Shown here: positions 33,965-52,434 of the stretch, in pieces | Position numbering within the stretch: the first letter of the stretch is position 1 | Layout of the letters: each line of letters starts with the position of its first letter | Assembly: GCA_012960415.1 (NCBI GenBank) | Contig: DUBH01000066.1 | Location: forward strand, 7,568 to 66,950 | DNA: 59,383 bases | Reading direction: 5' to 3' | Source of the DNA: Henriciella sp. | GTDB lineage: Bacteria > Pseudomonadota > Alphaproteobacteria > Caulobacterales > Hyphomonadaceae | Program-made: the position numbers and the translations under genes | Notes under the pieces: model-generated | What the model was told of the DNA's origin: nothing | What the model saw: only the letters and a program-made list of their open reading frames with translations | The model's database searches: none

Positions 33965-36175
33965 TTACTCGCCGCTGACGATGGTCATTTCCTCGATCAG
34001 GCGATCAGCACCATCTACCTTGTCCATGACCCAGAGCATGTAGCGGGAGTCGACATGGATGGTGCGCGTCGTGCGGGGGTCGAAGTCCCAGTCGGAATTC
34101 ACGCTTTCGATCGTGCCGTCAAAGAGAAGGCCGACCAGCTCGCCCTTGCTGTTCATCGTCGGCGAGCCGGAATTGCCGCCGGTCGAGTCGAGGTCAGACA
34201 GGAAGTTGACCGGCACCGAGCCGAGCGTGTCGAGCGCGTACTGGCCGTAATCGCCTGCCTCGATCAGGTCGAGCTGGCGCTGCGGCGAGTTGAATGGCTC
34301 TTCGCCTGTGTCTTTCTCTGTGATGCCTTCCAGCGTTGTAAACGGCGTGTAGATGAGGCCATCCTTTGGCGAGCCGCCCATCACGGTGCCATACGTCACG
34401 CGCAGGGTGGAGTTGGCATCCGGATAGGCTGCGAAGCCTTCGCTGGCCTGCCAGTCGATAATGGCCTGCATATAGTCCGGGCGCAGCGAAGCCATGCGGC
34501 CAGCGCGGTCCTTGGCGGCTGCTTCCATCTCGCGGTCAGTTTGATAAAGAGCAACGGCGAGTTCGATCAACGGGTCGCTGCTCTCTTCAAAGAAGCTTGG
34601 CTCCTGTTCCATCAGCGAGAGCCGGTACTCGGTCTCATCGAGCTGGGTTTCGGCGTAATAGGTGTCGAGGATGTCCGACACCGCTTCTTCATCCCAGTTT
34701 TCCGGCAGGCCGAGTGCTTCGTCGAAGGCGGCGACGCGCACGGTGTCGCTTGAGGTCATGTAGTCCTTGAGGAAGAGCATCCACTCTGCCTTTTCGACGG
34801 CCGGGTCGAAGCGGCGCTCAAGTGCCTGCAGACCTTGGCGGAAGAAGGTCATGTCGCGTTCCTGATAGCCGCTTTCGCGCTCTTCATTCGGCTTCTGACG
34901 CTCCAGCGACAGGCGGTAGAGACGCTTTGCTGCAGACAGTAGTTGCGAGCGATTGGCGTTGGAATAGCCCCAGTTCTCACGGCTGACTTCGGCGCTTTCG
35001 GCACTGAGGGCGTCGAGCGCAGCGAGCGTGCCTGCATAGTCCGTCTCGCCGGTCTGCTGTGCGATCCAGGTGTTGAGGGCCTCTTCGCGCTCTGCGCGCC
35101 GTCCAACCAGGTCAACGCGGCGCGCGCCTTCGATCTGGCCGCCGAGGTTCTTCATATAGTTATTGAGACCGGCGAGGCGGGACTCATACTTGATGCGCGC
35201 ATCAGAGCCAGCAGGTGCTGCGTCTTCGATGGCTGCGATCCAGTCAGCGAGAAGCGCCTGAAACTCCGGATACTGCCAGTTGAAGGTCTGCTCGACCTCG
35301 GCAAGGCGCGTATAGCGCTGGGTGGAGCCTGGATAACCAGCAGCCATGACGAAGTCGCCGTCATTGAGGCCGCCTGCCGAAACCTTCAGGAAGTGGTCTG
35401 GCTCAAACGGAACGTTCTCTTCGGCATAGTCTGCAGGCAGACCGTCCGGGCCGACATAGGCGCGGTAGAAAGCAAAGTCGCCCGTGTGGCGCGGCCACAT
35501 CCAGTTGTCGATGTCGCCGCCATATTTGCCGATGCTGTCGCTCGGGCCGTAGACGAGACGGACGTCGCGGATTTCGAGACGGTCGATCAGCTTATACTCA
35601 AGGCCGCCATAGAAGGAGGAGACCTGACAGCGGTGCCCAGCCTGCGCTTCGCACTCGGCGACGATCGCTTTCTCGGCATTCTCGACGACGGCGAAGATTT
35701 CCTCACCCGACATGCCTTGCTCGATATTGCCTCGAACGCGTTCGGTGACGTCTTCCACGTTTACTGTGACATAGACGCGGGTGCCTGGCGCAGCAGCGCG
35801 CTCGTCTTCAAGGCTGTTCGCGAGGAAGCCCGTTTCAAGGAAATTTTCTTCCTCGGTGGAATTGTACTGGATGGAGCCACGGGCGCAGTGATGGTTGGTC
35901 ACGACGAGGCCGGCCGGCGACACGAAGCTGGCGGTGCAGCCGCCGAGCGAGATGACGGCGCCCATAGGGAATGCGGTAAGATCGGTCAGCGAAGCCGGAT
36001 CGAGCTCCAGCCCGGTTTCGCGAAGGTCATCAGCGATCTGAGGCAGTTGGTCCGGCGTCCACATGCCTTCCTTGGCTGAAGCCGTCTGGGCGATGCCAGC
36101 AATACAAAGCGCGGCAACTGAAACAGTGCCGAGGCGCCCGGCCAATTGTTTGGTCTCAGAATTTCTGGATGACAT
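33965..36175 (-). CDS. S46 family dipeptidyl-peptidase
   Basis: An exported serine peptidase of 736 residues. A signal peptide (VSVAALCIAGIAQTASA) follows a basic N-terminus, and the mature chain starts KEGMWTPDQLP as in DPP7/DPP11. The catalytic His is in TNHHCARG (residues 95-96), an Asp region follows in DNWMWPRHTGDFAF, and the Ser is in GGNSGSP near the C-terminus. S46 enzymes remove dipeptides from peptide N-termini in the periplasm. The DPP7-versus-DPP11 specificity cannot be decided here. The start at 36175 has GGAG 6 bases upstream. It converges with the LysR gene after 47 bp. Confidence 0.9.
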   Translation of the reverse strand: MSSRNSETKQLAGRLGTVSVAALCIAGIAQTASAKEGMWTPDQLPQIADDLRETGLELDPASLTDLTAFPMGAVISLGGCTASFVSPAGLVVTNHHCARGSIQYNSTEEENFLETGFLANSLEDERAAAPGTRVYVTVNVEDVTERVRGNIEQGMSGEEIFAVVENAEKAIVAECEAQAGHRCQVSSFYGGLEYKLIDRLEIRDVRLVYGPSDSIGKYGGDIDNWMWPRHTGDFAFYRAYVGPDGLPADYAEENVPFEPDHFLKVSAGGLNDGDFVMAAGYPGSTQRYTRLAEVEQTFNWQYPEFQALLADWIAAIEDAAPAGSDARIKYESRLAGLNNYMKNLGGQIEGARRVDLVGRRAEREEALNTWIAQQTGETDYAGTLAALDALSAESAEVSRENWGYSNANRSQLLSAAKRLYRLSLERQKPNEERESGYQERDMTFFRQGLQALERRFDPAVEKAEWMLFLKDYMTSSDTVRVAAFDEALGLPENWDEEAVSDILDTYYAETQLDETEYRLSLMEQEPSFFEESSDPLIELAVALYQTDREMEAAAKDRAGRMASLRPDYMQAIIDWQASEGFAAYPDANSTLRVTYGTVMGGSPKDGLIYTPFTTLEGITEKDTGEEPFNSPQRQLDLIEAGDYGQYALDTLGSVPVNFLSDLDSTGGNSGSPTMNSKGELVGLLFDGTIESVNSDWDFDPRTTRTIHVDSRYMLWVMDKVDGADRLIEEMTIVSGE

Positions 36176-36327
36176 GGATAGCTCCGGTTTAGGCAAAAGG
36201 ATGCAAATGAAACTATTCGATATCCGCCCAAGCGGAGGGCCACAAGGCGGCAGCGGCAATGTGCCCGTATCTGCCGCAGCTGCAACACAACACGGCTGCA
36301 CTGACTGTCGTGTTGCTAATAAGAAAA

Positions 36328-36379: not shown

Positions 36380-36892
36380 TTAGTGGTCGCCTTGGATCAC
36401 GAGCGTGACGTTGCCGCGGCCAGACTGCTTGACGTTTGCGGTCTGACCTTCGCCGACCTGGATCACGCCAAGGCCGTTATACGAACCGGTCTGCGTCGTC
36501 ACGGCCGTGTGGCCGTTGCCGATCTGGGCGACGCCGGTCGTGCTGGCATAGGCGTTCTGGTAGGTGTCGGCATAGTTGTAGGCACCGTTCTGGCCGACCA
36601 CCGTGGAGTTGCGGCGGCCATGCTGGGCCACGATGGCGTCATTGCTTCTGCCGTACTGGCCAACGGTCGCGCCGTTGCGTGCGCCGTTCTGATAGGTGCT
36701 GATAAACTGGCCATAGCCGTTCTGGCGGACAGACAGCGATTGCTGGTAGCCGGTCTGACGCCCGGCGATCTCGTTCGAGTAACCGGACTGGTTGATGCGC
36801 ACATTGTTGCGCGATTGGGCGTCGGCGGTCGAAACGGTGGCGGCGACGGAGACAACGCTGAGCGATGCGGCGAGAAGAATACGGAGGTTCAT
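36380..36892 (-). CDS. Curlin-repeat secreted protein (paralog 1)
   Basis: A 170-residue protein with a signal peptide (ILLAASLSVVSVAATVSTADA) and about ten Gln/Asn/Gly-rich curlin-type repeats with the pattern V-x-Q-x-G (INQSGY, VRQNGY, VGQYGR, VGQNGA, VAQIGN, VIQVGE). Such repeats stack as the beta-helix of curli-like amyloid fibres. A second protein of exactly the same length and layout lies 230 bp upstream. No csgG, csgE or csgF gene is in this window. The ribosome binding site GAAAGGA is shared with the paralog. Whether it is a major subunit (CsgA-like) or a nucleator (CsgB-like) cannot be said. Confidence 0.82.
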   Translation of the reverse strand: MNLRILLAASLSVVSVAATVSTADAQSRNNVRINQSGYSNEIAGRQTGYQQSLSVRQNGYGQFISTYQNGARNGATVGQYGRSNDAIVAQHGRRNSTVVGQNGAYNYADTYQNAYASTTGVAQIGNGHTAVTTQTGSYNGLGVIQVGEGQTANVKQSGRGNVTLVIQGDH

Positions 36893-36957
36893 CTTCTGGT
36901 CCTTTCAGGGTCAAGTGCACGCGATGACCGCGTCACAGATCCCTGTCTAGGGAGCCC

Positions 36958-36987
36958 GCACTTAACCAAAACGGAGTGGGGCGTTCA
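36958..36987 (-). promoter_or_regulatory. Shared curlin promoter element, copy 1
   Basis: GCACTTAACCAA (36958-36969, plus strand) followed by CGGAGT and CGTTCA. The same 12 bases occur 67 bp from the start of the other curlin gene; here the distance is 66 bp. TTAACC resembles a CtrA half site, but that is only a resemblance. Confidence 0.5.
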
Positions 36988-37060
36988 CCTTCCGCTCACC
37001 AATAAGATCGGGTGTCCGAGGCGCCGATCTTGTAAGTCTCTCTGGCCCGTTCAAACGCAA

Positions 37061-37093
37061 AAAGCAGGAAAGGCGGGCGGCCTTTCCTGCTTT
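37061..37093 (-). terminator. Intrinsic terminator after the second curlin gene
   Basis: Stem AAAGCAGGAAAGG / CCTTTCCTGCTTT (13 bp perfect, 7-base loop) with TTTTTGCG following on the minus strand. It lies 30 bp after the curlin stop at 37123 and upstream of the promoter of paralog 1, so the two curlin genes are separate transcription units. Confidence 0.85.
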
Positions 37094-37122
37094 ATCGAAG
37101 CAGTCCGATTCTTGCGGTCTGT

Positions 37123-37635
37123 TCAGAAACCGCCTTGAATGACGAGCTTCACTTCACCGTCTCGCGTCTGGGTGACGTTGGTCGTCTGGCCATTGCCGAC
37201 CTGAATGACACCGAGCGCGCTGTAGGACCCGGTCTGCGTTGTCACAGCCGTGTTGTTCGACCCCATCTGGGCGACGCCGGTAATGTTGTTGCTGCCGGAC
37301 TGATAGGTGCTGCTGCGGTTATAGGCGCCAAGTTGTCCGAGGAAGGACCGGTTGCGCCAACCGTCCTGCGTCAGGGCAGCTTCATTCCGTGCACCATACT
37401 GCCTGATCGCGGCAACAGTCTGCGCGCCCCTCTGGGCTGCCTGGATGTACTGCCCATATCCGTCCTGCTTCACGGAAAGCGAGACCTGATAACCGCTCTG
37501 ACGGCCTGCGATCTGGTTGTTGGTACCGGTTTGTTCGATGCGGATCTGGCTGCGCGGCTGGGCGTCGGCAAGTGGGGCGGCAGCAGCGACAGAGGCAAGG
37601 CCGGCCGAAGCGGCAAGAAGCAGGCGGAATTTCAT
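37123..37635 (-). CDS. Curlin-repeat secreted protein (paralog 2)
   Basis: A 170-residue protein, same length and plan as paralog 1: signal peptide (LLLAASAGLASVAAAAPLADA), then curlin repeats (IEQTGT, VKQDGY, IRQYGA, LGQLGA, VAQMGS, VIQVGN) and a related end (LVIQGGF against LVIQGDH). Several stretches are shared with paralog 1, such as NTAVTTQTGSY against HTAVTTQTGSY. It is likely a fibre subunit exported to the surface. The start at 37635 has GAAAGGA 8 bases upstream; a longer in-frame reading would cross the promoter region. Confidence 0.82.
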   Translation of the reverse strand: MKFRLLLAASAGLASVAAAAPLADAQPRSQIRIEQTGTNNQIAGRQSGYQVSLSVKQDGYGQYIQAAQRGAQTVAAIRQYGARNEAALTQDGWRNRSFLGQLGAYNRSSTYQSGSNNITGVAQMGSNNTAVTTQTGSYSALGVIQVGNGQTTNVTQTRDGEVKLVIQGGF

Positions 37636-37701
37636 TTTCGGTTTTCCTTTCAGGGTCGAAGGCGCGTTGACGACGCGCAGTGATGCCTGCCTAGAAGGTC
37701 T

Positions 37702-37731
37702 GCACTTAACCAAGCCGGAGTTCGCCGTTCA
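37702..37731 (-). promoter_or_regulatory. Shared curlin promoter element, copy 2
   Basis: GCACTTAACCAA at 37702-37713 with CGGAGT and CGTTCA after it, matching copy 1 at the same distance from the gene start. Between element and gene both copies also share CTTTCAGGGTC. The remaining intergenic bases to 37797 hold no gene that I can see. Confidence 0.5.
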
Positions 37732-37797
37732 GCCTGTGGTCACTTCTTACGCAGCGAGCGGACAAGTTTGATGGTGCCTTTGGCCCGGCGAAAACAC

Positions 37798-37826
37798 TTG
37801 TGCGCAATATCAGAACATGTTCTAAT
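37798..37826 (+). promoter_or_regulatory. Promoter with palindromic operator on the -10 box
   Basis: TTGTGC (37798-37803), a 17-bp spacer and TCTAAT (37821-37826). A perfect palindrome AGAACATGTTCT (37812-37823) covers the spacer end and half of the -10 box, a usual place for a repressor. The TetR gene at the end of the operon is the natural candidate; that is inference. Transcription would start about 20 bases before the first gene. Confidence 0.55.
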
Positions 37827-37853
37827 TTTCTGAAAATATGACGGGAGCGAAAC

Positions 37854-38096
37854 ATGTCTGACACCAAATTATCGGTCGTCCGGAAATCCATCAGGCCTCA
37901 GGCTGGCGACAGCTGGGCGACGATTGCCGACCGGGAATTGCCGAAGCTCAAAACAGAAGATGGCGTCTCCAGCCTGCAGAGCTGGAACCTTCACGTTTAC
38001 ATGCGCGCACCGGCCCCAGAGGGCAGCCCGCGCGCCGGCAATCCCATCCTGCCGAGCGATGTGATCTTCATCGAGCCGCCAATGGCCGCCGCATGA
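37854..38096 (+). CDS. Small uncharacterised protein, possibly LysM-like
   Basis: An 80-residue protein I do not recognise. It has no signal peptide or membrane segment. The phrase AGDSWATIADRELP and, near the end, GNPILPSDVIFIEPP are spaced as in LysM modules (GD-x-W-x-I-A ... P-x-D-x-I-x-I), but the middle is unlike a standard LysM. GGGAG lies 6 bases before the ATG. It is first in the operon and overlaps the next small gene by 4 bp, so it is probably translated with it. A role as scaffold or binding partner for the enzymes downstream is only a guess. Confidence 0.65.
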   Translation: MSDTKLSVVRKSIRPQAGDSWATIADRELPKLKTEDGVSSLQSWNLHVYMRAPAPEGSPRAGNPILPSDVIFIEPPMAAA

Positions 38097-38365
38097 GCAG
38101 CGCGACTATCAAGCATGTTCAGATCGCGGCTGCCCATGACGGCATCGCCGAGCTGATTGTGACGCTCGCCTTCGAGAATGGCGGGCAGTCACTCGTGACG
38201 CTTGATGAGTACGCGACAAGCAGACTGATGGAGTCGACCGGTGCAGACCAGCCGGAAGACCTAACCGGAACCGGGTGGGAGTATGTGCGCGACGCACTCG
38301 CCGCCTCTTCGGCCAGATATCTCAACGAAAAAGAACAAGACCAGAGGGAAACGCCCCATGTATGA
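38093..38365 (+). CDS. Small uncharacterised protein
   Basis: A 90-residue protein of unknown family, soluble, with an alternating beta pattern in the first half (IAELIVTLAFENGGQSLVTL) and helices in the second (GTGWEYVRDALAASSARYL). It overlaps the upstream small gene by ATGA and the amidohydrolase by 8 bp, so it is firmly part of the operon. The coupling suggests a partner or accessory subunit of the amidohydrolase; no direct evidence. Confidence 0.65.
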   Translation: MSSATIKHVQIAAAHDGIAELIVTLAFENGGQSLVTLDEYATSRLMESTGADQPEDLTGTGWEYVRDALAASSARYLNEKEQDQRETPHV

Positions 38366-40055
38366 TCTCATTATCCGCAACGGTACTGTCGTCGATGGCT
38401 CCGGCCTGCCAGGCTATCAGGCCGACGTCGCCGTCAGAGGCAACCGCATCGCCAAGATCGGCAAGATTGCTGAAACCGCAGACAAGGAAGTCGACGCATC
38501 CGGCAAGGTTGTCGCGCCTGGCTTCATTGATCCGCACACCCACTTTGACGCCCAGCTTCTCTGGGATGGGGCGGCAAAGCCTGCGCTGTCGCACGGGGTA
38601 ACGACCATCGTCCCGGGCAATTGCTCGCTCTCATTGGCGCCCCTGAAGGCCGACCACCGCATGCGCCTTGTCGGCATGTTCAACCAGATTGAGGAAATGC
38701 CGTACAAAGCTTTCCGTGAGGGTGTGGTCTGGGACTGGGAGACCTTCTCCGAATACATCACGCGCATCCGCAAGGGGCTTGCGATCAATGTGGCCCCGCT
38801 TGTTGGCCACAGTGTTATTCGCCTCTGGGTGATGAATGATGCCGCCACAGAGCGCACGGCGACAGACGCGGAAATCGCGGAGATGCAGGACGTCCTGCGC
38901 GAATGCCTCGATGCAGGCGCCGCAGGCCTTTCCACCAGCTATGTCGACATGGACGAGACGCTCCAGCCGGTGCCGAGCCGCTATGCCGACGCCCGCGAAG
39001 TCGATGCGCTCGCGGCTGTTCTCGGTGAGTATGGCCGCATGCTGCAGATCGTGCCGGAATTCTACGACCCGGACCTCACGATTGCGCGCCTCGACCAGCT
39101 TGCAGAAATGTCGATCAAGTATCAGATTCCGACGACGTTCTCTCCGCTCTTCGTGAACTCTGACAATGTGGCCGCGGTCGATAAGGTGATGAACCGCGTT
39201 GATGAGCAGTTTGCGCGCGGGGCACGTGTGTGGCCGCAAGTCCAGACGCGCCCGATCGACATCTCGTTCTCCTTTGCTGTGCCGAGCCTCCTCTTCATCC
39301 GCTACCCGAACTGGTACCGGATCATGCGCTTCGGCACGCCGGAGGAGATCAAGGCGCACTTCGCTGATCCGGAGAACCGCAAGGCGCGGGCTGCTGAGGT
39401 TGCCGATGCCAAGGAACTCTGGCCGCGCCTTGTGCTGCGTCAGGTCAAGACCGACGCCAACCAGAAATATGTTGGTAAGACATTGGCTGGCATCGCGGCT
39501 GAGCGCGGTGTCACGCCGGTTGAGGCCATGATCGATATTTCGGTCGAAGAGGACCTTGAGGCACATTTCCTTGCAGCCGACATGGGCCACAACAATGACG
39601 ACAAGGTTGTTAGTCTGCTGAAGCATCCTCGCGTCCATATCGGCGCAAGCGATGGCGGTGCGCACATCTTGTCCTTCTCGACCTATGGCGACACGGGCTA
39701 TCTTTTCGCTCACTTCGTTCGCGACCTGAAAACCATGCGGCTTGAGGATGCGGTGAAGAAGATCACCTCAGACACAGCCTCCATCTGGGGCATTCCAGAA
39801 CGTGGGCTTCTGCAGCCCGGCTATATCGCAGACATAGCAGTCTTTGATCCGCAGACCGTGGATCGCGGCGTCGAGAAGTTCGTCCAGGATGTGCCGGGCG
39901 ATGGTAGCCGCTATGTGCGCGACTCCCACGGCGTCGATACGGTCATCGTCAGTGGTGGCATCGCCTGGTCTGCCAAGGGCGGCTATCAGGAAGCCCGCGG
40001 CGCCGTCTTGCCGGGCGAGACGTCCCGGCAGCCAGAACTGGTTGCTGCCGAATGA
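38358..40055 (+). CDS. Amidohydrolase, N-acyl-D-amino-acid deacylase type
   Basis: A metal-dependent hydrolase of 565 residues. The N-terminus MYDLIIRNGTVVDGSG and the metal site PGFIDPHTHFDAQ are typical of D-aminoacylase and related amidohydrolases; further metal or catalytic residues probably sit in IGASDGGAH. Standard D-aminoacylases are about 480-500 residues, so this is a longer member with extra helices in the middle (about 250-400). It cleaves an amide or imide bond; the substrate is unknown. The ATG at 38358 has AGAGGGA 8 bases upstream. Overlaps on both sides tie it to the small proteins and the alpha/beta hydrolase. Confidence 0.82.
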   Translation: MYDLIIRNGTVVDGSGLPGYQADVAVRGNRIAKIGKIAETADKEVDASGKVVAPGFIDPHTHFDAQLLWDGAAKPALSHGVTTIVPGNCSLSLAPLKADHRMRLVGMFNQIEEMPYKAFREGVVWDWETFSEYITRIRKGLAINVAPLVGHSVIRLWVMNDAATERTATDAEIAEMQDVLRECLDAGAAGLSTSYVDMDETLQPVPSRYADAREVDALAAVLGEYGRMLQIVPEFYDPDLTIARLDQLAEMSIKYQIPTTFSPLFVNSDNVAAVDKVMNRVDEQFARGARVWPQVQTRPIDISFSFAVPSLLFIRYPNWYRIMRFGTPEEIKAHFADPENRKARAAEVADAKELWPRLVLRQVKTDANQKYVGKTLAGIAAERGVTPVEAMIDISVEEDLEAHFLAADMGHNNDDKVVSLLKHPRVHIGASDGGAHILSFSTYGDTGYLFAHFVRDLKTMRLEDAVKKITSDTASIWGIPERGLLQPGYIADIAVFDPQTVDRGVEKFVQDVPGDGSRYVRDSHGVDTVIVSGGIAWSAKGGYQEARGAVLPGETSRQPELVAAE

Positions 40056-41014
40056 GCTGGCCGGGGGTGAGTGAGCGCCGGATCGAGACGAACGGGATCG
40101 AGCTCAATATCGCAGAAGCAGGGGAGGGGCCTCTTGTCCTGCTTCTGCATGGCTTTCCGGAATCCTGGTATTCCTGGCGCCATCAGTTCAAGCCGATCGC
40201 CGAGGCTGGCTATCATGTCGTTGCGCCGGACATGCGCGGCTATGGCAAGTCACACAAGCCGCATGAGATCGAGGCTTACAATCAGGTCGAAGTCCGCAAG
40301 GACATAATCGGTCTGATCCCAGCACTCGGTCACGAGAAGGCGATTGTTATCGGTCATGACTGGGGCGCGCCGACGGCCTGGGCGACTGCGCTTCATCATC
40401 CCGACAAGGTGCGTGCAGTCGGCGCTCTTTCGGTGCCCTTCATCCCGCGTTCTCCAGTCCCGCCAATGGCGGCCATGCGCGAGATGTTCAAAGGTCAGTT
40501 CTTCTACCAGCTCTACTTCTATGAGCCGGGCGTGGCCGAGGCCGAATTTGAAGCGGATATCCGCACCGCCCTGAAGAAATTCATGGTGCTCGCTGGCGGA
40601 GAAACCGACCTCACCCAGATGCCCGTCAAAGGGCCCGATGACGACATGTTCTCCGGCTTGCCCAATCCGGACAAACTTCCGGACTGGTTGAGTGAGGAAG
40701 ACCTCGATTTCTATGCAGCCGAGTTCACCCGCTCCGGCATGCGCGGGCCACTCAATTACTATCGCAATCATGACCTTGCATGGAAGCTAACCGAGGGCGC
40801 GCCCGATCATATCGACCAGCCAGCTTTCTTCCTTGGCGGGGCTAATGACGGGGTGATCATGATGGCCGCCGAAGCCTATCAGGCCATGCCGACATTCGTT
40901 CGCGATCTGCGCATCAACGAGCTCATTCCTGGCATCGGTCACTGGACGCAGCAGGAAGCGCCAGAGAAGACCAATGAGGTCATTCTCCGCTTCCTGAAGG
41001 AGGTGGGTGGATGA
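40052..41014 (+). CDS. Alpha/beta hydrolase, epoxide hydrolase-like
   Basis: A 320-residue alpha/beta hydrolase. Seen: oxyanion motif HGFPESWYSW at 33-42, nucleophile Asp103 in IGHDWGAPTAW, a cap domain in the middle, and the catalytic His in GIGHWTQQE near the end. An Asp nucleophile with HGFPE is the mark of soluble epoxide hydrolases (and haloalkane dehalogenases); these open an epoxide to a diol. Substrate unknown. It overlaps the amidohydrolase and the FAD oxidoreductase by 4 bp each, so the three enzymes are likely made together and may act in sequence. Confidence 0.85.
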   Translation: MSWPGVSERRIETNGIELNIAEAGEGPLVLLLHGFPESWYSWRHQFKPIAEAGYHVVAPDMRGYGKSHKPHEIEAYNQVEVRKDIIGLIPALGHEKAIVIGHDWGAPTAWATALHHPDKVRAVGALSVPFIPRSPVPPMAAMREMFKGQFFYQLYFYEPGVAEAEFEADIRTALKKFMVLAGGETDLTQMPVKGPDDDMFSGLPNPDKLPDWLSEEDLDFYAAEFTRSGMRGPLNYYRNHDLAWKLTEGAPDHIDQPAFFLGGANDGVIMMAAEAYQAMPTFVRDLRINELIPGIGHWTQQEAPEKTNEVILRFLKEVGG

Positions 41015-42531
41015 CAGAGACAGTTCTCGTCATTGGCGCTGGCATTGGCGGTCTTTGTACTGCGCTATCGCTTTCGCCAACCGGCCGCCAGATCACCATA
41101 TTGGAGCGGGACGCGCCGCCGCCTGCTGACGATCCGGACGTCGTGTTCCTCGACTGGCACCGGCGGGGGGCAGGACATGTTCGTCAGAGCCACGCCTTCC
41201 TTGCCCGGCTTCGAAACATCATCAAACAGCATCATCCAGCCCTGCTTGAAGAGCTGAAAGCCCTCGGCACGCGTGATCTCACTTTCGATATGATGCTGAC
41301 CGAGCAGCAGCGCGAGCGTTATGAACCGCTGCCTGAGGATGCTGATCTTACGATCATCACCAGCCGCCGGACCACGCTGGAGCTTGCCATTCGCCGCTAT
41401 GTGGAGGGGCTGGAAAACGTCACGATCCGGTCCGGCTTCCTTGTGCGCAAGCTGACCACGCGGGCGGGCGAAGGCAGCCTCATCGAGGTTTGCGGTGTGC
41501 GCGGAGAAGAAAATAGCGAGCCTGTGGTTCTCTCTGCTGACACTATTGTCGACGCCAGCGGCAAGTCTGGCTTCCTGATCCAGCAGCTGATGGATGAAGG
41601 CGCAGCAATCGCGGAAGAAAGTGAAACGGCGGGCATTCTCTACTTCACCCGCCATTACCGGCTGCGGCCCGGGCAGGATGAACCGTCGCGGACGGAAAAC
41701 CCACCTGCAAGCGGTGACCTTGGCTATATCAAGTTCGGCGTGTTTCCCGGCGACAATGGCTGCTTCTCGGTTACGATTTCCGTGCCTGAGGTCGAGCTGG
41801 AGCTGCGCAAGGCGATCATGAACCCCGATGTGTTCCACGCGATTACGCTGCAGCTTCCAGGGATTGCGCCGTGGACCAATGTGGCAAGGTCCGAGCCGCG
41901 CGGCAAGGTGCACGGCATGGGGGACCTGCACAGCCGCTGGCGGGATATGGTCGTCGATAATGTTCCAGCGACGCGCAACTACTATCCGCTCGGCGATACG
42001 CTGGTTCGAACCAATCCGCTCTATGGCCGTGGCTGTTCCTTCGCGGCCGTGAGCGCAGAGATGTTGCGCGAGACGCTGGAAGAGACGTCAGACGTGACCG
42101 AACGACAGCGCATCTATCATGCAAAGCTGCGCACAGAGCTTCGGCCCTATTACATGAACCAGCGTGCGCAGGACCGCTCTGCGATCAAGCGGGCTGAAGC
42201 GGCATTGACGCCGGGCTACAAAAAGAGCTGGCGCGGCAAGATGGTGGAAAGCTTCTTCGAGGATGGTGTACGGATTGCGCTGCGCTCTGATGTGGACTTG
42301 CTAAGACAGGCCATGCGCGGTTTTCACATGCTCGAGCACCCTAACAAATGGCTCGGCAAGCCAGCCAATCTGGGCCGCGTTCTCTGGTACTGGTCTCGTG
42401 GAAAGAAGAGGAATGCCGCTGCTTATCCACCCGAGGCCGGACCGGAGCGCCAGCAGATGATGGTGGCACTCAACCTCGACCCGAAGGCCGATATGCGACA
42501 GACACCCGTTGAGGCTGAACTTGCAGCCTGA
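41011..42531 (+). CDS. FAD-dependent oxidoreductase / monooxygenase-like
   Basis: A flavoprotein of 506 residues. Seen: the dinucleotide-binding GAGIGG at residues 8-13 and a second FAD motif NYYPLGDTLVRTNPLYGRG about two thirds along, as in para-hydroxybenzoate hydroxylase-fold proteins and related halogenase-like enzymes. No tryptophan-halogenase WxWxIP motif was seen. It probably oxidises or epoxidises a substrate that the neighbouring epoxide hydrolase could then open; this order is inference. It starts in an ATGA overlap with the hydrolase gene. Confidence 0.75.
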   Translation: MTETVLVIGAGIGGLCTALSLSPTGRQITILERDAPPPADDPDVVFLDWHRRGAGHVRQSHAFLARLRNIIKQHHPALLEELKALGTRDLTFDMMLTEQQRERYEPLPEDADLTIITSRRTTLELAIRRYVEGLENVTIRSGFLVRKLTTRAGEGSLIEVCGVRGEENSEPVVLSADTIVDASGKSGFLIQQLMDEGAAIAEESETAGILYFTRHYRLRPGQDEPSRTENPPASGDLGYIKFGVFPGDNGCFSVTISVPEVELELRKAIMNPDVFHAITLQLPGIAPWTNVARSEPRGKVHGMGDLHSRWRDMVVDNVPATRNYYPLGDTLVRTNPLYGRGCSFAAVSAEMLRETLEETSDVTERQRIYHAKLRTELRPYYMNQRAQDRSAIKRAEAALTPGYKKSWRGKMVESFFEDGVRIALRSDVDLLRQAMRGFHMLEHPNKWLGKPANLGRVLWYWSRGKKRNAAAYPPEAGPERQQMMVALNLDPKADMRQTPVEAELAA

Positions 42532-42559
42532 CAGTTCAGCAGCGAAGGGGCGTCAAATC

Positions 42560-43261
42560 GTGGAAGATTTAGGCAAGCGCGAGCAGGCCAAAGCGCGCCG
42601 GCGGACAGACATCGTGCGTGCGGCGCGCGACCTCATCCGCGAGACCGGCGAAACAGATCTCTCCATGCGGACGCTGGCGCAGCGCGCAGGTGTCAGCCTG
42701 TCGACGCCGTACAACCTGTTCGGGTCAAAGCGCGCTGTCGTGCTGGCAGTCCTCGAGGATGAGCGCGATTTCGCTGAACGTTTTCGCAAGCTCGTTAGCG
42801 GCAATAGCATCGACCGCATCTTCGGCGCGCATGATCTTGCCTTCAGCTATTATACGAGCGATCCTGAGTTCTATCGCACGCTGTGGCGCGCGTTGCTGTC
42901 GACGTCGGGGCAGGATGATACCGGACTTGCGACACCGGAACGCCTCGCCCAGACGCGTGCAATCTGGCTTGGCCTTGTCAGTAATGCTGTTCGTGATGGT
43001 TATCTGGCCGATGATATTCCAGCAGAGCTGATCATGCAGTCGATGGCCCACGTCACGGGCGGCGCGCTTCTGTCCTGGGCCATGGGAGGCCTTTCGACGT
43101 CGGCGCTGACGGCAACGGTTGGCATCGGTTATGCGCTATGCCTGAAAGGGTCGGCCACCGCGAAGGGCCAGGCGCTTCTTCAGGCGAAGATCGAAGCGTA
43201 TCAGGTAAGCCTTTCAAAGGCAGGCCGACAGGTGAGCGAGCGTGCGCCCGAAACCCTATAG
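42560..43261 (+). CDS. TetR family transcriptional regulator
   Basis: A protein of 233 residues from the GTG start. The N-terminal HTH (about residues 12-60) reads RRTDIVRAARDLIRETG, LSMRTLAQRAGVSLSTPYNLFGSK; the C-terminal ligand domain is hydrophobic and unassigned. The GTG at 42560 has GAAGGGGCG about 9 bases upstream; a TTG at 42509 inside the previous gene is possible. Last in the operon that begins at 37854, it is the likely repressor acting at the AGAACATGTTCT palindrome in the promoter. Confidence 0.83.
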   Translation: MEDLGKREQAKARRRTDIVRAARDLIRETGETDLSMRTLAQRAGVSLSTPYNLFGSKRAVVLAVLEDERDFAERFRKLVSGNSIDRIFGAHDLAFSYYTSDPEFYRTLWRALLSTSGQDDTGLATPERLAQTRAIWLGLVSNAVRDGYLADDIPAELIMQSMAHVTGGALLSWAMGGLSTSALTATVGIGYALCLKGSATAKGQALLQAKIEAYQVSLSKAGRQVSERAPETL

Positions 43262-43318
43262 ATCGGACTGGGCAACCCGTCCGTCAGGTGAGTGTTCTCC
43301 ACGAGGCTGCCTTGCCTG

Positions 43319-43501
43319 CCGGACTATCTGGTGGCCGACAAGATCAGTTAGGGTAAGCTGACGCGGGTTCTGGAAGATTGGTGCCTGCCTTTTCCAGGCT
43401 TTCACCTTTACTATCCGAGCCGGCGGGAAGGGTCTCGTGCGTTCCGTCTTTTCGTCGATGAGTTTAGGGAGCAGGCCAAGCGCCCGCGCAATTCGGATTA
43501 A
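43319..43501 (+). pseudogene. C-terminal remnant of a LysR family regulator
   Basis: One frame encodes PDYLVADKIS, an in-frame TAG, then GKLTRVLEDWC, FPGFHLYYPSRR and a normal stop at 43499. This is the usual end of a LysR effector domain (RVLEDWCPPFPGFxLYYPSRR). The N-terminal two thirds are missing and a stop interrupts the rest, so it is decayed. The upstream bases 43262-43318 show no clear continuation. It fills the gap between the TetR gene and the CoA-transferase. Confidence 0.7.
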
Positions 43502-43509
43502 GTGCCGGG

Positions 43510-44748
43510 TCAGGCTTCGCTTTCCCGCCTGAAATCCGGGTGAGCGATGGCCATCAGTCTTTCGCGGCGCTCATCCAGCGTTGCATGTCTGAGATCAGCG
43601 ACGCCGAACTCTGTGACAACAAAGCCGACATCGGCGCGGGGTGTTGTGACCGGGCCTGAAAGCTCGGCGACAATACGGCTGCGGCCTTTGGCTGTGGAGG
43701 GCAGGGCAATGATGCCCTTCCCGCCTTTGGATGCAGCCGCCCCGCGCATGAAATTCACTGCGCCGCCCACCGCGCCGACATAGCGCCCGCCAGCGACTTC
43801 AGCGTTCACCTGTCCGGAAAGATCGACCTCGATCGCAGAATTGATTGCTGTAAACTGCTTGATCTGTCCGATGACGCTCTCGGCGTGAGTGTAGCTACTG
43901 GGCTTTATGAGAAGGTGGCGGTTGCCATCGGCCCAGCCCATCAGTTCTTTCCCACCAGAGAGAACACCCGCCACCGTGCAGCCAGCGTCGATCGCCTTGC
44001 TCTCATTTGTGATCACACCTGCCTGGCTGAGCTCCATGACGCCGTCCGTGATCAGGCCAGAGTGCACCCCAAGCCTGCGATGATCTTGCAGGGCACTGAG
44101 AATTGCTGCGGGAAGGGAGCCGAGCCCGATCTGAAGCGTCGCGCCATCATCGATCAGGCCTGCGACATGGCTGGCAATGGTGCGCTCGGTCTCACCAACG
44201 CTTTGGGAAGCTGGCTGCGGGCAAGGCGATGCCGTGCGGATGATGATATCAAGGTCGCTGCGATGGACATCCCTGCCGTCGCCGGTTCGCGGCGTTTCGG
44301 AGCTGACTTCGGCGATCACCAGCCTTGCATGGGGTAGCAGGTCCGCGAGATAATCGCCGCCTGCGCCAAAGCTGAAATATTCCTCGTCGTTACCGGGCGC
44401 GAGGCGGATGAGCACGATCAGCTGACCATCGGCACACGAAATCAGGGTGCGCGCCAACTCGGTATAGTGCACGGGTAGTATGGAGAGCTGATCGCCAAGC
44501 GACCTGTTCTTGCCCGTGCCGCAATAGGAGGTGAACTCGACCATATCGGCATGCTCAAGGCTCACGCAGTCGCCATAGCCAATGCCAGCAAAGGCGCGAA
44601 AGCGGCCCACCTTATGCCGGGCTGCCATCAGTGAACGCGTGAGACTATCAGGTTCCGCCGACGCCTGCCCCCAAACGACGAGATCGCCGGGACTTATCAG
44701 TGCCGGCCAGTTGACGTCTTTCAGATCTACATCACGCGGGCTGCGCAT
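43510..44748 (-). CDS. Acetyl-CoA hydrolase/transferase family protein (class I CoA-transferase)
   Basis: A protein of 412 residues with the two Rossmann-like halves of the acetyl-CoA hydrolase / 4-hydroxybutyrate CoA-transferase family. The probable catalytic Glu is in INSAIEVDLSGQVNAE, followed by GGAVNFMRGA and the end ATLDERRERLM. These enzymes swap CoA between acyl-CoA and a free acid or hydrolyse the thioester. The start at 44748 has GAGAGGG 9 bases upstream and is 4 bp after the thiolase stop, so the two are one operon. The acid used is unknown. Confidence 0.83.
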   Translation of the reverse strand: MRSPRDVDLKDVNWPALISPGDLVVWGQASAEPDSLTRSLMAARHKVGRFRAFAGIGYGDCVSLEHADMVEFTSYCGTGKNRSLGDQLSILPVHYTELARTLISCADGQLIVLIRLAPGNDEEYFSFGAGGDYLADLLPHARLVIAEVSSETPRTGDGRDVHRSDLDIIIRTASPCPQPASQSVGETERTIASHVAGLIDDGATLQIGLGSLPAAILSALQDHRRLGVHSGLITDGVMELSQAGVITNESKAIDAGCTVAGVLSGGKELMGWADGNRHLLIKPSSYTHAESVIGQIKQFTAINSAIEVDLSGQVNAEVAGGRYVGAVGGAVNFMRGAAASKGGKGIIALPSTAKGRSRIVAELSGPVTTPRADVGFVVTEFGVADLRHATLDERRERLMAIAHPDFRRESEA

Positions 44749-44752
44749 CCGG

Positions 44753-45949
44753 TCATGCCCTCTCGAATATCGCTGCCATGCCCTGACCGCCGCCGATACA
44801 CATGGTCTCGAGGCCATAGCGCACATCCCGGCGCTTCATCTCGTGAAGTAACGTCGTCATGATCCGGACACCGGTCGCGCCGATCGGATGGCCAAGCGAG
44901 ATGCCGGAACCGTTGACGTTGAGAATGGACTGGTCATTCCAGTCCAGCGCTTTGAGGCAGGCCAAGACCTGCGCCGCGAAAGCTTCATTGATCTCGACCA
45001 GCCCCATATCATCCATGGAAAGACCGGTACGTTTCAGCACTTTCTGTGTCGCGCCGACCGGGCCGATGCCCATATGCGACGGCTCGCAGCCGACAGCCGA
45101 CCATCCGTTAAGAAACGCAATGGGTGTCAGGCCCAGCTCATTGAGTTTGTCTTCCGACACGATGAGGCAGGCCGCGGCGGCATCATTCTGCTGGGCGGCA
45201 TTGCCGGCCGTAACGGTGCCGTCCTTGGTCAGAACGCGCAATTTGCTGAGACTGTCACTGGTCGTTTCGGCACGTATGCCCTCGTCTGTTGCGAAGGTGA
45301 TCGGGTCGCCCTTTCGTTGGGGGACTTCGACTGGCACGACTTCTTCATCGAACTTGCCCTCATTCCAGGCAGCAGCCGCGCGCTGCTGGCTTTGCGCTGC
45401 GTAGGCGTCGGCAGCTTCGCGCGAAATGTTATAGTCCCGTGCGAGGTTCTCGGCAGTCTCGATCATCCCCGAAATAAACCCGAACCGGTCTCCAGGCTGG
45501 GACCGCTCGCGTCCACGATCCAGCCTGTCATAGAGGCGCGTCGAACCTGAACGTGAACCCCAGCGCATATCCGTGGTGTAGTACTCAATATTCGACATGC
45601 TTTCGACGCCGCCCGCGAGCACTACGTCACAAGCGCCAGATTCAATCATCATCGCGCCGGTGACGATGGCTTGGAGGCCCCCGCCGCAGCGCCGGTCGAG
45701 TTGAAGGCCCGGCACCGTGACGGGAAGCCCCGACTCAAGCGCAATCCAGCGGCCGACACATGGCGTTTCACTGTTCGCATAGGACTGGGCGAAGACGAAG
45801 TCCTCGATAAGCGCGGGGTCGATGCCCGTCCGTTTCAGAACTTCTTTTGTGACAGTCGCGCCCAGCTTTTCGACGGGGACGTCCTTGAGCGATTTTCCGA
45901 AGGCGCCGACGGGCGTGCGGACGGGGCTGACTATGGCTGCGCGAGGCAT
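44753..45949 (-). CDS. Acetyl-CoA C-acyltransferase (thiolase)
   Basis: A degradative-type thiolase of 398 residues. Seen: nucleophile Cys88 in LDRRCGGGLQA (the usual form is CGSG), the His of GHPIGATG and the second Cys in ETMCIGGGQG. It splits a 3-ketoacyl-CoA with CoA into acetyl-CoA and a shorter acyl-CoA. The ATG at 45949 gives the standard MPRAAIVSPVRTPVG N-terminus; the longer reading is basic and proline-rich and unlikely. It follows the IclR gene by 38 bp on the same strand. Confidence 0.9.
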   Translation of the reverse strand: MPRAAIVSPVRTPVGAFGKSLKDVPVEKLGATVTKEVLKRTGIDPALIEDFVFAQSYANSETPCVGRWIALESGLPVTVPGLQLDRRCGGGLQAIVTGAMMIESGACDVVLAGGVESMSNIEYYTTDMRWGSRSGSTRLYDRLDRGRERSQPGDRFGFISGMIETAENLARDYNISREAADAYAAQSQQRAAAAWNEGKFDEEVVPVEVPQRKGDPITFATDEGIRAETTSDSLSKLRVLTKDGTVTAGNAAQQNDAAAACLIVSEDKLNELGLTPIAFLNGWSAVGCEPSHMGIGPVGATQKVLKRTGLSMDDMGLVEINEAFAAQVLACLKALDWNDQSILNVNGSGISLGHPIGATGVRIMTTLLHEMKRRDVRYGLETMCIGGGQGMAAIFERA

Positions 45950-45987
45950 GGGCGTATTCCTGTCATGGGTAGAGGTCGGGCGGAGCC

Positions 45988-46830
45988 TTATGACCGGGTT
46001 CTGGAAATCGATTGGGCGAGATGGAGCAGGCGTGGGCCGATATCGGTCTCGATCCGCTCGCGGTCGAGGTCGAAGGCGGGGCCGCCGCAATTCAGGGCAA
46101 GCCAGTTATCGTGATCAGCGTCATAGACCGGCGTGGCGACGCCGCGGACATTTCTGCGCCATTCGCCTTCCACGACACAGAAGCCTTTCTCGCGAACATC
46201 TTCGATGGCCGTCCTGACGCGGTCTTCCAGATCAGGCCAGTCCGCGCCGTAGAAGATCGACCAGCGGTCAAACAGGTCCTGCCTGTCATCGTCGGAGAGC
46301 GTCGAAAGATAAGCCCTGCCTGCAGCGCTTTTGGCCATCGACATGCGTGAGCCGATCTCGGGCATGAGGTCCGATGAGGTGAGGGCAATGCTCGCGGAAA
46401 TGTAGATCATCGTATCGCTGTCGGGCCACGATATCCCGACCGTGCCGCCCGCCAGATTGGCGAGTTCCTGCATCGGTCGCTGAGCCATTTGCCTGATGCG
46501 GAAACCGCCGAGAACGGGGCGGGCAAGCGACAAAAGATTAGGGGTCGGCGCGTATTGCCGGTTCCGCGTCCTGTCGAGGTAGCCGAGTTCTGTGAGCGTA
46601 TGGGTGATCCGGCTCACCGTGGCTTTGGCGATGCCTGTGCGCTCAGAGAGTTCGCTGTTTCCAATGGCGCCTTCATCTGGCCGAAAAGCCTGAAGCAACT
46701 GCAAAGTCCTTGCGACCGACCAGATGAACTTCCTGTCGTCGCCGTACGATTCCTCAAGATCAGCAAGCTCAGGCGCGCGAAGCAGCTCTGCGGTCGGGCT
46801 TTCTTTCGCCGGAATCAGGGATCTGGACAT
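45988..46830 (-). CDS. IclR family transcriptional regulator
   Basis: A protein of 280 residues with an N-terminal winged HTH (about 35-95: ARTLQLLQAF, NSELSERTGIAKATVSRITHTLTELGYL) and an IclR effector domain (about 110-270) with SAAGRAYLSTL. IclR proteins bind a small organic acid or its derivative and act as repressor or activator. It lies between the thiolase operon and the divergent acyl-CoA dehydrogenase operon and probably controls both through the inverted repeats at 46885-46930. It has an N-terminal extension of about 35 residues before the HTH. Confidence 0.87.
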   Translation of the reverse strand: MSRSLIPAKESPTAELLRAPELADLEESYGDDRKFIWSVARTLQLLQAFRPDEGAIGNSELSERTGIAKATVSRITHTLTELGYLDRTRNRQYAPTPNLLSLARPVLGGFRIRQMAQRPMQELANLAGGTVGISWPDSDTMIYISASIALTSSDLMPEIGSRMSMAKSAAGRAYLSTLSDDDRQDLFDRWSIFYGADWPDLEDRVRTAIEDVREKGFCVVEGEWRRNVRGVATPVYDADHDNWLALNCGGPAFDLDRERIETDIGPRLLHLAQSISRTRS

Positions 46831-46884
46831 TTTGGCGAGTGCCTCGCTTGCGGCATTGGTGATGGTCAGACTCTACCGCGCCAG

Positions 46885-46930
46885 TTTCAGAAATTGAAGT
46901 CTTGTGCTCAAAAAATGAAATGATAGTTTC
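46885..46930. promoter_or_regulatory. Candidate IclR operator pair
   Basis: Two imperfect palindromes in the 163-bp divergent gap: TTTCAGAAATTGAAG (46885-46899) and GAAA-TGATAG-TTTC (46917-46930). Paired TTTC/GAAA half sites are typical of IclR targets. No other gene or clear promoter is seen in the gap. Confidence 0.4.
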
Positions 46931-46993
46931 GCAGAGCGGAATTTACGACGCGCCGAAATGAGGTGATCGTCAACAGAGCAAGGAAATGCAAAA

Positions 46994-48148
46994 ATGAATA
47001 AGGGCATCGATCAGGACGTCTTCGATCAGCTTCTGGAGACCGTGAGGCGGTTCACGCAGAAACGCCTCATCCCGACCGAGACCGAGGTTGAGGAAACCGA
47101 CAACATTCCGGAAGACATCGTTCAGGAGGTCCGCGACCTTGGCCTGTTCGGCATTTCCATCCCGGAAGAATATGGCGGCATCGGGCTCAATATGGAGCAG
47201 GAGACGCTTGTCATTGAGGAGCTCTGCAACGCATCGCTGGCCTTCCGCTCGCTGATCGGGACGACCGTCGGTATCGGGTCCCAGGGCCTCGTCATGGACG
47301 GCACCGAAGAGCAGAAGCAGGCTTTCCTGCCACGGCTCGCCACGGGTGAGATTATTTCCTCCTTCGCACTCACGGAGCCGGACTTTGGCTCCGATGCGGC
47401 CCACATCCAGACAACCGCGCGGCGTGACGGCGATGATTTCGTGATCAATGGCACCAAGCGCTACATCACAAATGCCAGCCGTGCAGGTATGTTCACATTG
47501 CTGGCGCGCACCGACCCGGACAAGGATGGCGCAAGCGGCGTCACGGCTTTCCTGATGCCAGCCGACACACCGGGTATCTCGTTCGGCAAGACCGACAAGA
47601 AGATGGGCCAGCGCGGCACGCGGACGTGCGACGTCATGCTAGATGATGTCCGCCTGCCAGCTTCCGCGATCATTGGTGGCCCGGATAATCTCGGTAAAGG
47701 CTTCTATACGGCTATGAAGGTTCTCGACCGGGGCCGTATTCACCTGTCAGCCGTGGCTGTGGGGACGTCACAGCGCATGATCAACATTGCCACCGAGTAC
47801 GCCCGCGAACGCAAACAGTTCGGCGTGCCGATCGGTCAGCATCAGCTGGTGCAGGCGCTGCTGGCCGACTCGCAGACCGATCTTCTTGCTGCGCGGCATC
47901 TCTGCCGGGCAGCCGCGCGCAAGTATGATGCTGAGGGCAGCGCTGTCCCGGAAGCGTCCTGCTCCAAACTCTTCTCGAGTGAAGCGGCAGGCCGTATTGC
48001 CGACCGGTGCGTGCAGGTCCATGGCGGGGCAGGCTACATCGCCGACTATCAGATCGAACGCCTTTACCGTGACGTTCGCCTGCTGAGAATCTATGAGGGC
48101 ACGTCCCAGATCCAGCAGATCATCATCGCACGGGCGATGCTGAAATAG
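46994..48148 (+). CDS. Acyl-CoA dehydrogenase (first of two)
   Basis: A 384-residue flavoenzyme with FALTEPDFGSDAA and INGTKRYITNA in the beta domain and the catalytic Glu in RIYEGTSQIQQ near the C-terminus, as in short- and medium-chain enzymes. It introduces a 2,3-double bond in an acyl-CoA and passes electrons to ETF. AAGGA precedes the ATG. It opens a plus-strand cluster of acyl-CoA genes divergent from the IclR regulator. Confidence 0.9.
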   Translation: MNKGIDQDVFDQLLETVRRFTQKRLIPTETEVEETDNIPEDIVQEVRDLGLFGISIPEEYGGIGLNMEQETLVIEELCNASLAFRSLIGTTVGIGSQGLVMDGTEEQKQAFLPRLATGEIISSFALTEPDFGSDAAHIQTTARRDGDDFVINGTKRYITNASRAGMFTLLARTDPDKDGASGVTAFLMPADTPGISFGKTDKKMGQRGTRTCDVMLDDVRLPASAIIGGPDNLGKGFYTAMKVLDRGRIHLSAVAVGTSQRMINIATEYARERKQFGVPIGQHQLVQALLADSQTDLLAARHLCRAAARKYDAEGSAVPEASCSKLFSSEAAGRIADRCVQVHGGAGYIADYQIERLYRDVRLLRIYEGTSQIQQIIIARAMLK

Positions 48149-48237
48149 TCGACTGGCTGGACACGGGCTCAGCATTGAGGCCAGCTTGCGAGGCGTCCAG
48201 CCAGAAGACGTAATGAACCATTTAGGGAGATACGCCT

Positions 48238-49401: not shown

Positions 49402-49413
49402 GCAGAAAAGATC

Positions 49414-50217
49414 ATGCTCGCTTTCTCCTTTCCGCTTTTTGTCCCCGCATCCCGGCCCGACCGCTTTCAGAAGGCGGCAGCTTCAGGCGCTGACACGATC
49501 ATCATTGATCTTGAGGATGCGGTTCAGGAGGGCAGGAAGGATCAAGCCCGAGAGCAGGCGGCGCAGACATTTTCTGGGCTGAATGGCTCGGATGTCTGGC
49601 TGCGTGTGAACGCCAGCGACACGCGCTGGCATGAGAAGGATGTCGAGGTCGCGGTACAGGGCGGGCTTAAGGGCATTGTGCTTCCGAAAGCCGAGAGCGC
49701 CGAGCAAATCAGGCAGGTGCGCGCACGCATGCGCGGCGATCAGCTGCTGATCGCGCTCGTTGAAAGCGCGCGGGGCATTCGCGACGCCTACGCAATTGCC
49801 GAAGTCAGCGACAGGCTTCTCTTCGGCTCAATCGACTTTGCCCTTGATGCGGGCTGCGCGGAAACCGACGAAGCATGCCTGATGGCGAGGTCCACCCTCG
49901 TGATCGCGTCGCGGGCGGCGCGGATTCCTGCTCCGCTCGATGGGGTTACGGTCAAGGTGAATGATGAAGGCGCCGTGCGCAGCGCTGCATCCTACGCAAA
50001 CGGTCTTGGCTTTGGCGGCAAGCTGCTGATCCACCCGGCTCAGCTAAAGCCAGCGCGCGCAGCATTTGCGCCTTCGGCCGAAGACATTGAGTGGGCACGC
50101 AAGATACTGTCCAGCGGCGAAGGTGGCGAAGCTCGGTCTTTAGATGGTGACATGATTGACGCGCCCGTTGTCGAGCGGGCCCGGCGGCTTCTGGTCAGGC
50201 TGGAGGAGACCGCATGA
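49414..50217 (+). CDS. HpcH/HpaI (CitE-like) CoA-ester lyase
   Basis: A 267-residue TIM-barrel enzyme of the CitE / malyl-CoA lyase class. Seen: RPDRFQKAAASGADTIIIDLEDAV at the metal and substrate site, LVESARGI, and GFGGKLLIHPAQ. Members split 3-hydroxyacyl-CoA esters such as citramalyl-CoA or malyl-CoA into acetyl-CoA (or propionyl-CoA) and a keto acid. It is 12 bp after the second dehydrogenase and overlaps the hydratase-like gene by ATGA, so lyase and hydratase are probably consecutive steps. Confidence 0.85.
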   Translation: MLAFSFPLFVPASRPDRFQKAAASGADTIIIDLEDAVQEGRKDQAREQAAQTFSGLNGSDVWLRVNASDTRWHEKDVEVAVQGGLKGIVLPKAESAEQIRQVRARMRGDQLLIALVESARGIRDAYAIAEVSDRLLFGSIDFALDAGCAETDEACLMARSTLVIASRAARIPAPLDGVTVKVNDEGAVRSAASYANGLGFGGKLLIHPAQLKPARAAFAPSAEDIEWARKILSSGEGGEARSLDGDMIDAPVVERARRLLVRLEETA

Positions 50218-52369: not shown

Positions 52370-52434
52370 CCTGGCGCAGACTTGCTGCGACCTGCAGTCT
52401 TGTGCCGGGCTCGAGCGCTTGAAGGATCAGGATT

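Follow-up and report, generated by a model that had tools for sequence, protein, structure and literature searches.

Amidohydrolases of the D-aminoacylase type are not known to need partner subunits, and urease is laid out as two small subunits together with an amidohydrolase large subunit. Flavin epoxidases are known from polyether biosynthesis; according to one account (PMC10560226), the epoxidase MonCI acts on a carrier-bound polyene and needs the carrier. Here we describe a six-gene operon that recalls parts of each of these systems, found in a 59,383-nucleotide stretch of a Henriciella sp. genome (contig DUBH01000066.1; the whole stretch is referred to as the window, and coordinates are those of the window). 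The operon encodes two small proteins (P1 and P2), an amidohydrolase (AMH), an epoxide hydrolase (EH), a flavoprotein (FAD) and a TetR-family regulator, and it points to an undescribed pathway, possibly with a new multi-part enzyme. In all loci examined, P1, P2 and AMH form an invariant core.

We read the six genes as a substrate-inducible operon under TetR control for epoxidation and hydrolysis, in which AMH acts together with P1 and P2, and give this reading a probability of about 0.5. What the sequences show is the gene order, its conservation, the co-occurrence of the genes, their homologies, the catalytic residues kept in EH and a palindrome that goes with a downstream TetR gene. From these we infer the substrate, each reaction and the order of the steps, the P1-P2-AMH complex and the repression, as follows. 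A hydrophobic, unsaturated small molecule would be the substrate; the MonCI-like FAD enzyme would put oxygen across a C=C bond, EH would open the epoxide to a vicinal diol, and the D-aminoacylase-like AMH, in complex with P1 and P2, would hydrolyse another bond, which may be an amide, a carbamate or an ester. TetR would repress from the palindrome 5' of P1 until released by a ligand.

The operon and its invariant core

The six open reading frames form one tight unit at 37854-43261 of the window, all on the + strand:

37854..38096, + strand: P1, small protein of 80 aa, no known family
38093..38365, + strand: P2, small protein of 90 aa, no known family or fold match, predicted to form three strands and then helices
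38358..40055, + strand: AMH, amidohydrolase of 565 aa, related to D-aminoacylase and N-acyl-D-glutamate deacylase
40052..41014, + strand: EH, alpha/beta hydrolase of the soluble epoxide hydrolase/EphA type, 320 aa
41011..42531, + strand: FAD, flavoprotein of 506 aa, related to the epoxidases MonCI and Lsd18/LasC
42560..43261, + strand: TetR-family regulator of 233 aa, GTG start (TetR_N 33.9 bits, cut-off 24)

Neighbouring genes from P1 to FAD overlap by 4, 8, 4 and 4 bp, and the TetR gene follows FAD after 28 bp. These values agree exactly with an earlier note on this DNA, which had described five genes overlapping by 4-8 bp with a regulator 28 bp behind them; the joint production of the gene products that it expected is consistent with the layout, both in the overlaps and in the palindrome that recurs 5' of P1. 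The spacings are identical to the base in four loci from the same genus (L031-L034). P1 and P2 are real genes, because their ratios of nonsynonymous to synonymous substitution rates (dN/dS) between the window and five relatives are low (0.05-0.12 for P1 and 0.05-0.15 for P2).

Among 105 genomes of the family, P2 is present in 35, AMH (at 1e-100) in the same 35, and FAD (at 1e-60) in 34 of these; in the exception (G071) the operon sits on a short contig of 6.3 kb. Twenty of the 35 family loci were retrieved at 18-20 kb for gene-order comparison, and all 20 keep the order P1-P2-AMH-EH-FAD-TetR, with EH in two pieces in L037. A wider set came from a P1 profile scan of named genomes, which found 100 relatives, 80 of which were kept (locus counts out of 80 refer to these). 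The nearest named relatives of P1 are from Henriciella (90-98% identity). Judged by record title, the relatives belong mostly to Alpha- and Gammaproteobacteria, and include Henriciella, Hyphomonas, other Caulobacterales-type bacteria, Novosphingobium, Sphingorhabdus, Polymorphobacter, Pacificimonas and many gammaproteobacterial metagenome bins. On this basis we counted 34 of the 80 loci as gamma, among them one from Candidatus Azophilus (L131) that we presume to be gammaproteobacterial, and the other 46 alpha, four of which carry Acidobacteria-type titles.

P2 and AMH lie downstream of P1 in 80/80 loci, and the distance between P2 and AMH is at most 150 bp in 79 of them (one gene intervenes in L086). 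Searching by way of the small proteins, as the earlier note had proposed, thus recovered a conserved order in the family loci and the P1-scan loci alike, and its concern that the small proteins might not be conserved with the enzymes is not borne out. A scan of viral sequences with P2 gave eight pattern stretches and no relatives, and a literature search at the level of titles and abstracts, subscription papers excluded, found no description of the operon.

The small proteins follow one clade of amidohydrolases. In 385 genomes of the class, P1 was found in three and P2 in the same three plus one weak match (E 0.0056); AMH at 78% identity or more occurs in exactly these three P1/P2-bearing genomes, and the remaining AMH matches of this set at 1e-90 reach 45% identity at most. 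In nine loci where the AMH relative is 37-45% identical, the 1.5 kb upstream encodes neither P1 nor P2. The P2 profile, run over 398 genomes of the phylum, gave six matches. One of these, G731, is new and remote; there P2 is flanked by P1 (36% identical) and AMH (60%), and neither EH nor FAD stands beside the trio.

Behind the trio, 60 of the 80 loci continue with both EH and FAD, 2 have FAD without EH, 6 have EH without FAD (in one of which, L105, the EH match is weak and unrelated) and 12 have neither. The contig extends less than 3.2 kb after P1 in 9 of the 20 incomplete loci (L073, L074, L085, L110, L111, L115, L117, L122 and L132) and at least 3.2 kb in the other 11. Eight loci hold the trio without adjacent EH/FAD on contigs that do not end early (L075, L083, L088, L104, L105, L120, L123 and L135), so P1 and P2 are tied to AMH and not to the EH/FAD pair.

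Two individual arrangements of the trio deserve mention. A remote version in the same order (L192:6378-9851) comprises a thiolase-like gene, P1, P2 and AMH, with no EH or FAD alongside. In Polymorphobacter (L077:3382-7803), two more amidohydrolases, about 31% identical to AMH, are encoded directly 5' of P1-P2-AMH.

The small proteins and the amidohydrolase

The earlier note could place neither small protein in a family, and comparisons with Pfam, NCBIfam and PDB uphold this. Pfam and NCBIfam searches with 27 members each of P1 and P2 gave scattered weak single-member matches, none of them consistent: the best NCBIfam match is to a transketolase (E 0.0028, one P2 member only), and chaperone-type matches are confined to a T3SS/YbjN family in 1 of 27 P2 members (E 0.048) and FliS for the P2 of the window (E 0.15). 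Against PDB sequences, the P2 profile has no match up to E 10, and the P1 profile matches RecA fusions (E 0.0011 to 0.049; repeated fusion chains as long as 2050 residues), which are probably chance matches, and Acl4 (E ~0.8). A PDB fold look-up with the models of P1 and P2 returned nothing at E <=0.001 (best 0.036 for P2 and 3 for P1). The P2 model, with a predicted local distance difference test score (pLDDT) of 86.6, is a small compact alpha/beta protein of three strands plus helices. The stretches 'LQSWNLHV' and 'NPILPSD' of P1 are nearly invariant; H47 and D69 of P1 and H15 and E20 of P2 are invariant in 27 aligned rows; and the conserved residues of both proteins are spread along most of their length, with no leader/core pattern.

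We considered P1 as a LysM domain, prompted by its GDxW..IA stretch and a predicted order of strand, helix and helix, and rejected this candidate after profile comparison. Against a LysM profile built from the 18 domains with a clean reading out of 30 loci, the probability is 8.5%, and column shuffles scored as well in 3/100 local and 10/100 global comparisons; Pfam LysM matches none of the 27 P1 members.

P1 and P2 could also be expression, folding or delivery factors for AMH (a chaperone or metal-loading pair) instead of subunits. Such a role would suit their strict linkage to this AMH clade only, the position of both small genes ahead of AMH and the predicted small compact alpha/beta fold of P2, but the searches revealed no consistent similarity to chaperones or metallochaperones beyond the T3SS/YbjN and FliS matches, and we regard it as distinctly unlikely.

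The ends of AMH match D-aminoacylase (~9e-48) and N-acyl-D-glutamate deacylase (1.5e-38), and its HTH and GNC stretches align with these enzymes; residues 195-412 do not align with D-aminoacylase. H60, H62, C89, H151, E234, H403, H411, D432 and H436 are invariant in 78/78 AMH sequences (those longer than 530 aa, the window included; three shorter ones were left out). The HxH, bridging Cys and Asp of the D-aminoacylase metal site are therefore retained throughout (H60, H62, C89 and D432). At the likely beta5 position, 233, 56 of the 78 sequences have P, 21 have H and one has N, and the likely beta6 position, 263, is P in all 78, with the placing of both uncertain in the unaligned part of the protein. 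A loss of the beta5/beta6 metal ligands is suggested, and only suggested, because residues 195-412 are unaligned with D-aminoacylase. AMH relatives without P1/P2 likewise have no His at the putative beta5/beta6 positions; it follows that the pair was not simply acquired as a substitute for these histidines.

The last point bears on a more specific proposal, in which P1 and P2 would be obligate subunits of a three-component amidohydrolase whose urease-like layout arose independently on a D-aminoacylase-type large subunit; the invariant H47 and D69 of P1 and H15 and E20 of P2 would help to build an active site without the beta5/beta6 His, and the enzyme would act on diols from the epoxidase and EH of the same operon. 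An active site built with P1/P2 is weakened as an idea because the P1/P2-free relatives also do without those histidines, and we hold the proposal as a whole to be unlikely.

The epoxide hydrolase and the flavoprotein

EH matches EphA of mycobacteria over nearly its full length (9.1e-85) and, in an alignment with human soluble epoxide hydrolase, has the nucleophile Asp, the two ring-opening Tyr, the acid Asp and the His in place (5/5); the epoxide hydrolase named in the earlier note is thus recognizable by the five residues expected of it. The FAD profile matches MonCI (5.2e-29) and LasC/Lsd18 (3.7e-22 to 8e-22) in PDB, and all nine PDB sequences matched at <=1e-6 are MonCI or LasC/Lsd18. Residues 5-359 of the profile align with MonCI, including the GxGxxG, DASG and GD-box regions, and G9, G11, G14, G328 and D329 are invariant in 20 rows. 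The earlier idea of FAD as the oxidising step accords with this profile homology, the nearest solved relatives being epoxidases. Homology thus supports the first two enzyme types of the route that the earlier note suggested (oxidation, opening, cleavage of an amide), and amide cleavage by AMH is a candidate reaction. A plasmid search with FAD gave 76 records, every one below 60% identity and 55 of them from Streptomyces.

Whether FAD accompanies the trio was followed in 12 genomes with an incomplete operon (those of the 11 loci with at least 3.2 kb after P1, plus L132) at a cut-off of 1e-40. FAD was found in 10 of the 12, beside AMH in two (L107 and L124); out of the 10 genomes where it was not seen beside AMH, 8 carry FAD elsewhere. 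In one of these 8, a Novosphingobium genome (L187), EH adjoins an unlinked FAD, away from the trio.

FAD also differs from the other proteins in how it splits between classes. Its alpha-gamma identity is at most 42% and its within-class identity at least 50%, with a tree branch of 0.66; the median is 37% between classes and 57% within gamma. The corresponding medians for P1, P2, AMH and EH are 57, 49, 68 and 65% between classes and 58, 52, 69 and 67% within gamma (the identity and tree comparison covers sequences that reached the length limits and exceeded 30% identity). The AMH and EH trees likewise divide by class, but the branches are short (0.05 for AMH and 0.04 for EH), and L107 falls out of place in the tree of AMH. 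Because FAD alone splits deeply by class, its slot was either refilled or diverged fast, with the same family kept.

These results feed the main rival to a single pathway, namely two modules under one promoter: P1-P2-AMH as a multi-subunit hydrolase, and EH-FAD for epoxide detoxification or dihydroxylation, co-induced and acting on separate molecules. It draws on the eight loci with the trio and no adjacent EH/FAD, on the two genomes out of 12 in which FAD went undetected, on the EH-FAD pair unlinked from the trio in Novosphingobium and on the two lineages that hold the FAD slot. Set against it, most of the examined trio genomes also carry FAD, adjacent or elsewhere, and the five-gene order is common to Alpha- and Gammaproteobacteria despite a different position of TetR; we see two modules as possible, if doubtful.

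Near unlinked FAD genes of the gamma type, we observed a similar short-chain dehydrogenase/reductase (SDR), adjacent in 4/7 cases and within ~3.2 kb in 2/7 (L184, L185 and L188-L191; its identity by Pfam adh_short was checked on the L189 copy only). This SDR is a possible next step of the pathway.

Regulation, surroundings and comparison with known systems

Two features 5' of P1 are candidates for the control of the operon:

37809..37826, no strand assigned: palindrome ATCAGAACATGTTCTAAT, proposed TetR operator, from the recurrence of the motif across loci
37798..37826, + strand: possible promoter by eye (TTGTGC, 17 nt, TCTAAT), weak, overlapping the palindrome

The consensus of the palindrome is close to TTrGAACryGTTCyAA, and it mostly stands ~40-50 bp 5' of P1 (farther in L067 and L076). 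Counted at <=3 mismatches within 250 bp, it is present in 32/32 loci with TetR downstream, in 0/10 with TetR upstream, in 3/38 with no TetR detected and in 7/1600 shuffled upstream regions; the consensus was derived from the same loci, which makes the 32/32 partly circular, and the evidence is the contrast between groups together with the shuffles. In the three loci that have the palindrome and no detected TetR (L082, L085 and L115), the contig stops before the position of TetR. The outer variable pair of the palindrome is A/T in 16, G/C in 8 and non-complementary in 8 of 32. In its own genome, the sole zero-mismatch copy of the 15-base core is the palindrome 5' of P1, and looser matches (7+5, compared with 9+5 for a reversed-pattern control) show no excess; because they do not exceed the control, no wider regulon is indicated. 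A promoter consensus scan of 37700-43600 gave no site at threshold (1.6 expected in shuffles), and the region has 5 terminator-like sites against 4.3 expected, none of which we claim.

In alpha loci the TetR gene closes the operon, whereas 10 gamma loci have one at its head; the position of the regulator thus varies while the five-gene order, common to both classes, stays. In these 10 gamma loci the TetR encoded before P1 is 29-38% identical to that of the window, and in five loci examined closely its gene ends within ~12 bp of P1 or overlaps it. Judging from these identities, the upstream regulator is perhaps a different TetR.

Several observations weigh against a single TetR-controlled pathway with AMH, P1 and P2 acting together. 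TetR was undetected in 38/80 loci, some of them cut by contig ends. The putative beta5/beta6 metal His of AMH are mostly not His, so that hydrolase chemistry is not assured. The family scan detected no carrier or polyketide family among the six operon proteins. No FAD homologue was found at 1e-40 in the genomes of L088 and L105, and the trio can therefore exist without FAD, whose two lineages, unlike the history of AMH, EH, P1 and P2, suggest that its role may differ between them. Finally, the P1 model is poor (pLDDT 63.7).

The surroundings of the operon are not conserved with it. Two adjacent curlin-repeat proteins (Pfam Curlin_rpt) are encoded divergently upstream (36380-37713, - strand), a flank kept in only 4/20 family loci (L031-L034) and missing from the other 16; an S46 peptidase gene comes next (33965-36301) and is whole in two of these four loci. 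On the other side, 43510-53484 encodes an acetyl-CoA hydrolase/transferase, an acyl-CoA dehydrogenase, an HpcH/HpaI-type lyase and a CoA-transferase of family III by Pfam, and a thiolase, an IclR regulator and a second dehydrogenase by eye, and is probably an acyl-CoA catabolic cluster. We dropped it as a part of the operon, since close matches to it stand beside the operon in none of the 20 family loci (weak acyl-CoA-dehydrogenase matches set aside); partial matches occur in a few loci of the wider set, e.g. L137 (38% and 53%) and L105 (48%). Elsewhere in the window, a 1531-aa protein (15364-19959) has an autotransporter beta-domain, an Ig-like Big_12 domain and DUF7933.

Beyond the six genes there is no general conserved neighbour, the maximum being 13/80 loci (antisense open reading frames apart). 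Neighbours recognized by eye include genes like those for enoyl-CoA hydratase (13 of 80 loci), SDR (9), permease (6, all in gamma loci), MaoC (5) and a Baeyer-Villiger flavoprotein (5). The permease-like genes are one of three features that would fit a biosynthetic operon that tailors a secondary metabolite and in which P1 or P2 serves as a carrier or precursor peptide; the others are the polyether-biosynthesis origin of the nearest solved relatives of FAD and the small open reading frames at the head of the operon. This is very improbable in our view, given that the six proteins include no carrier, polyketide synthase, nonribosomal peptide synthetase or peptide-modification family, that P1 and P2 are conserved without the pattern expected of a precursor, and that no additional gene recurs beyond the 13 loci just mentioned.

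P1 and P2, with neither a name nor a fold match, track one amidohydrolase clade across Alpha- and Gammaproteobacteria, and the carriers include groups represented here by metagenome bins only (titles OM182, K189A and SAR86). Should P1 and P2 be subunits, calling the members of this clade just 'amidohydrolase' or 'D-aminoacylase' leaves out part of the enzyme, and the large gene expressed alone could yield an inactive enzyme. The operon also shows MonCI-like enzymes in a bacterial context other than polyether biosynthesis and offers a candidate operator, and its natural epoxidase/epoxide-hydrolase pair (by homology) might be of use for making vicinal diols.

In comparison with described systems, the operon combines partial likenesses. 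PMC12882949 reports cholate-induced D-aminoacylases and an amidohydrolase adjoining a TetR gene, a set that is not shown to be the present operon. AMH resembles D-aminoacylase and N-acyl-D-glutamate deacylase in the HTH and GNC stretches and in its N- and C-terminal parts, but is accompanied by P1 and P2 in every P1-scan locus. Its likeness to urease is one of layout only, two small genes followed by an amidohydrolase of ~565 aa; the operon is not a member of that system, and no urease family matches P1 or P2. EH has the five residues in common with EphA and human soluble epoxide hydrolase, and differs from them in being set within this operon. FAD is like MonCI and Lsd18/LasC at the profile level only, so the substrate is not transferable from these flavin epoxidases; the substrate of the MonCI system is carrier-bound, whereas the six-gene operon encodes no matched carrier family.

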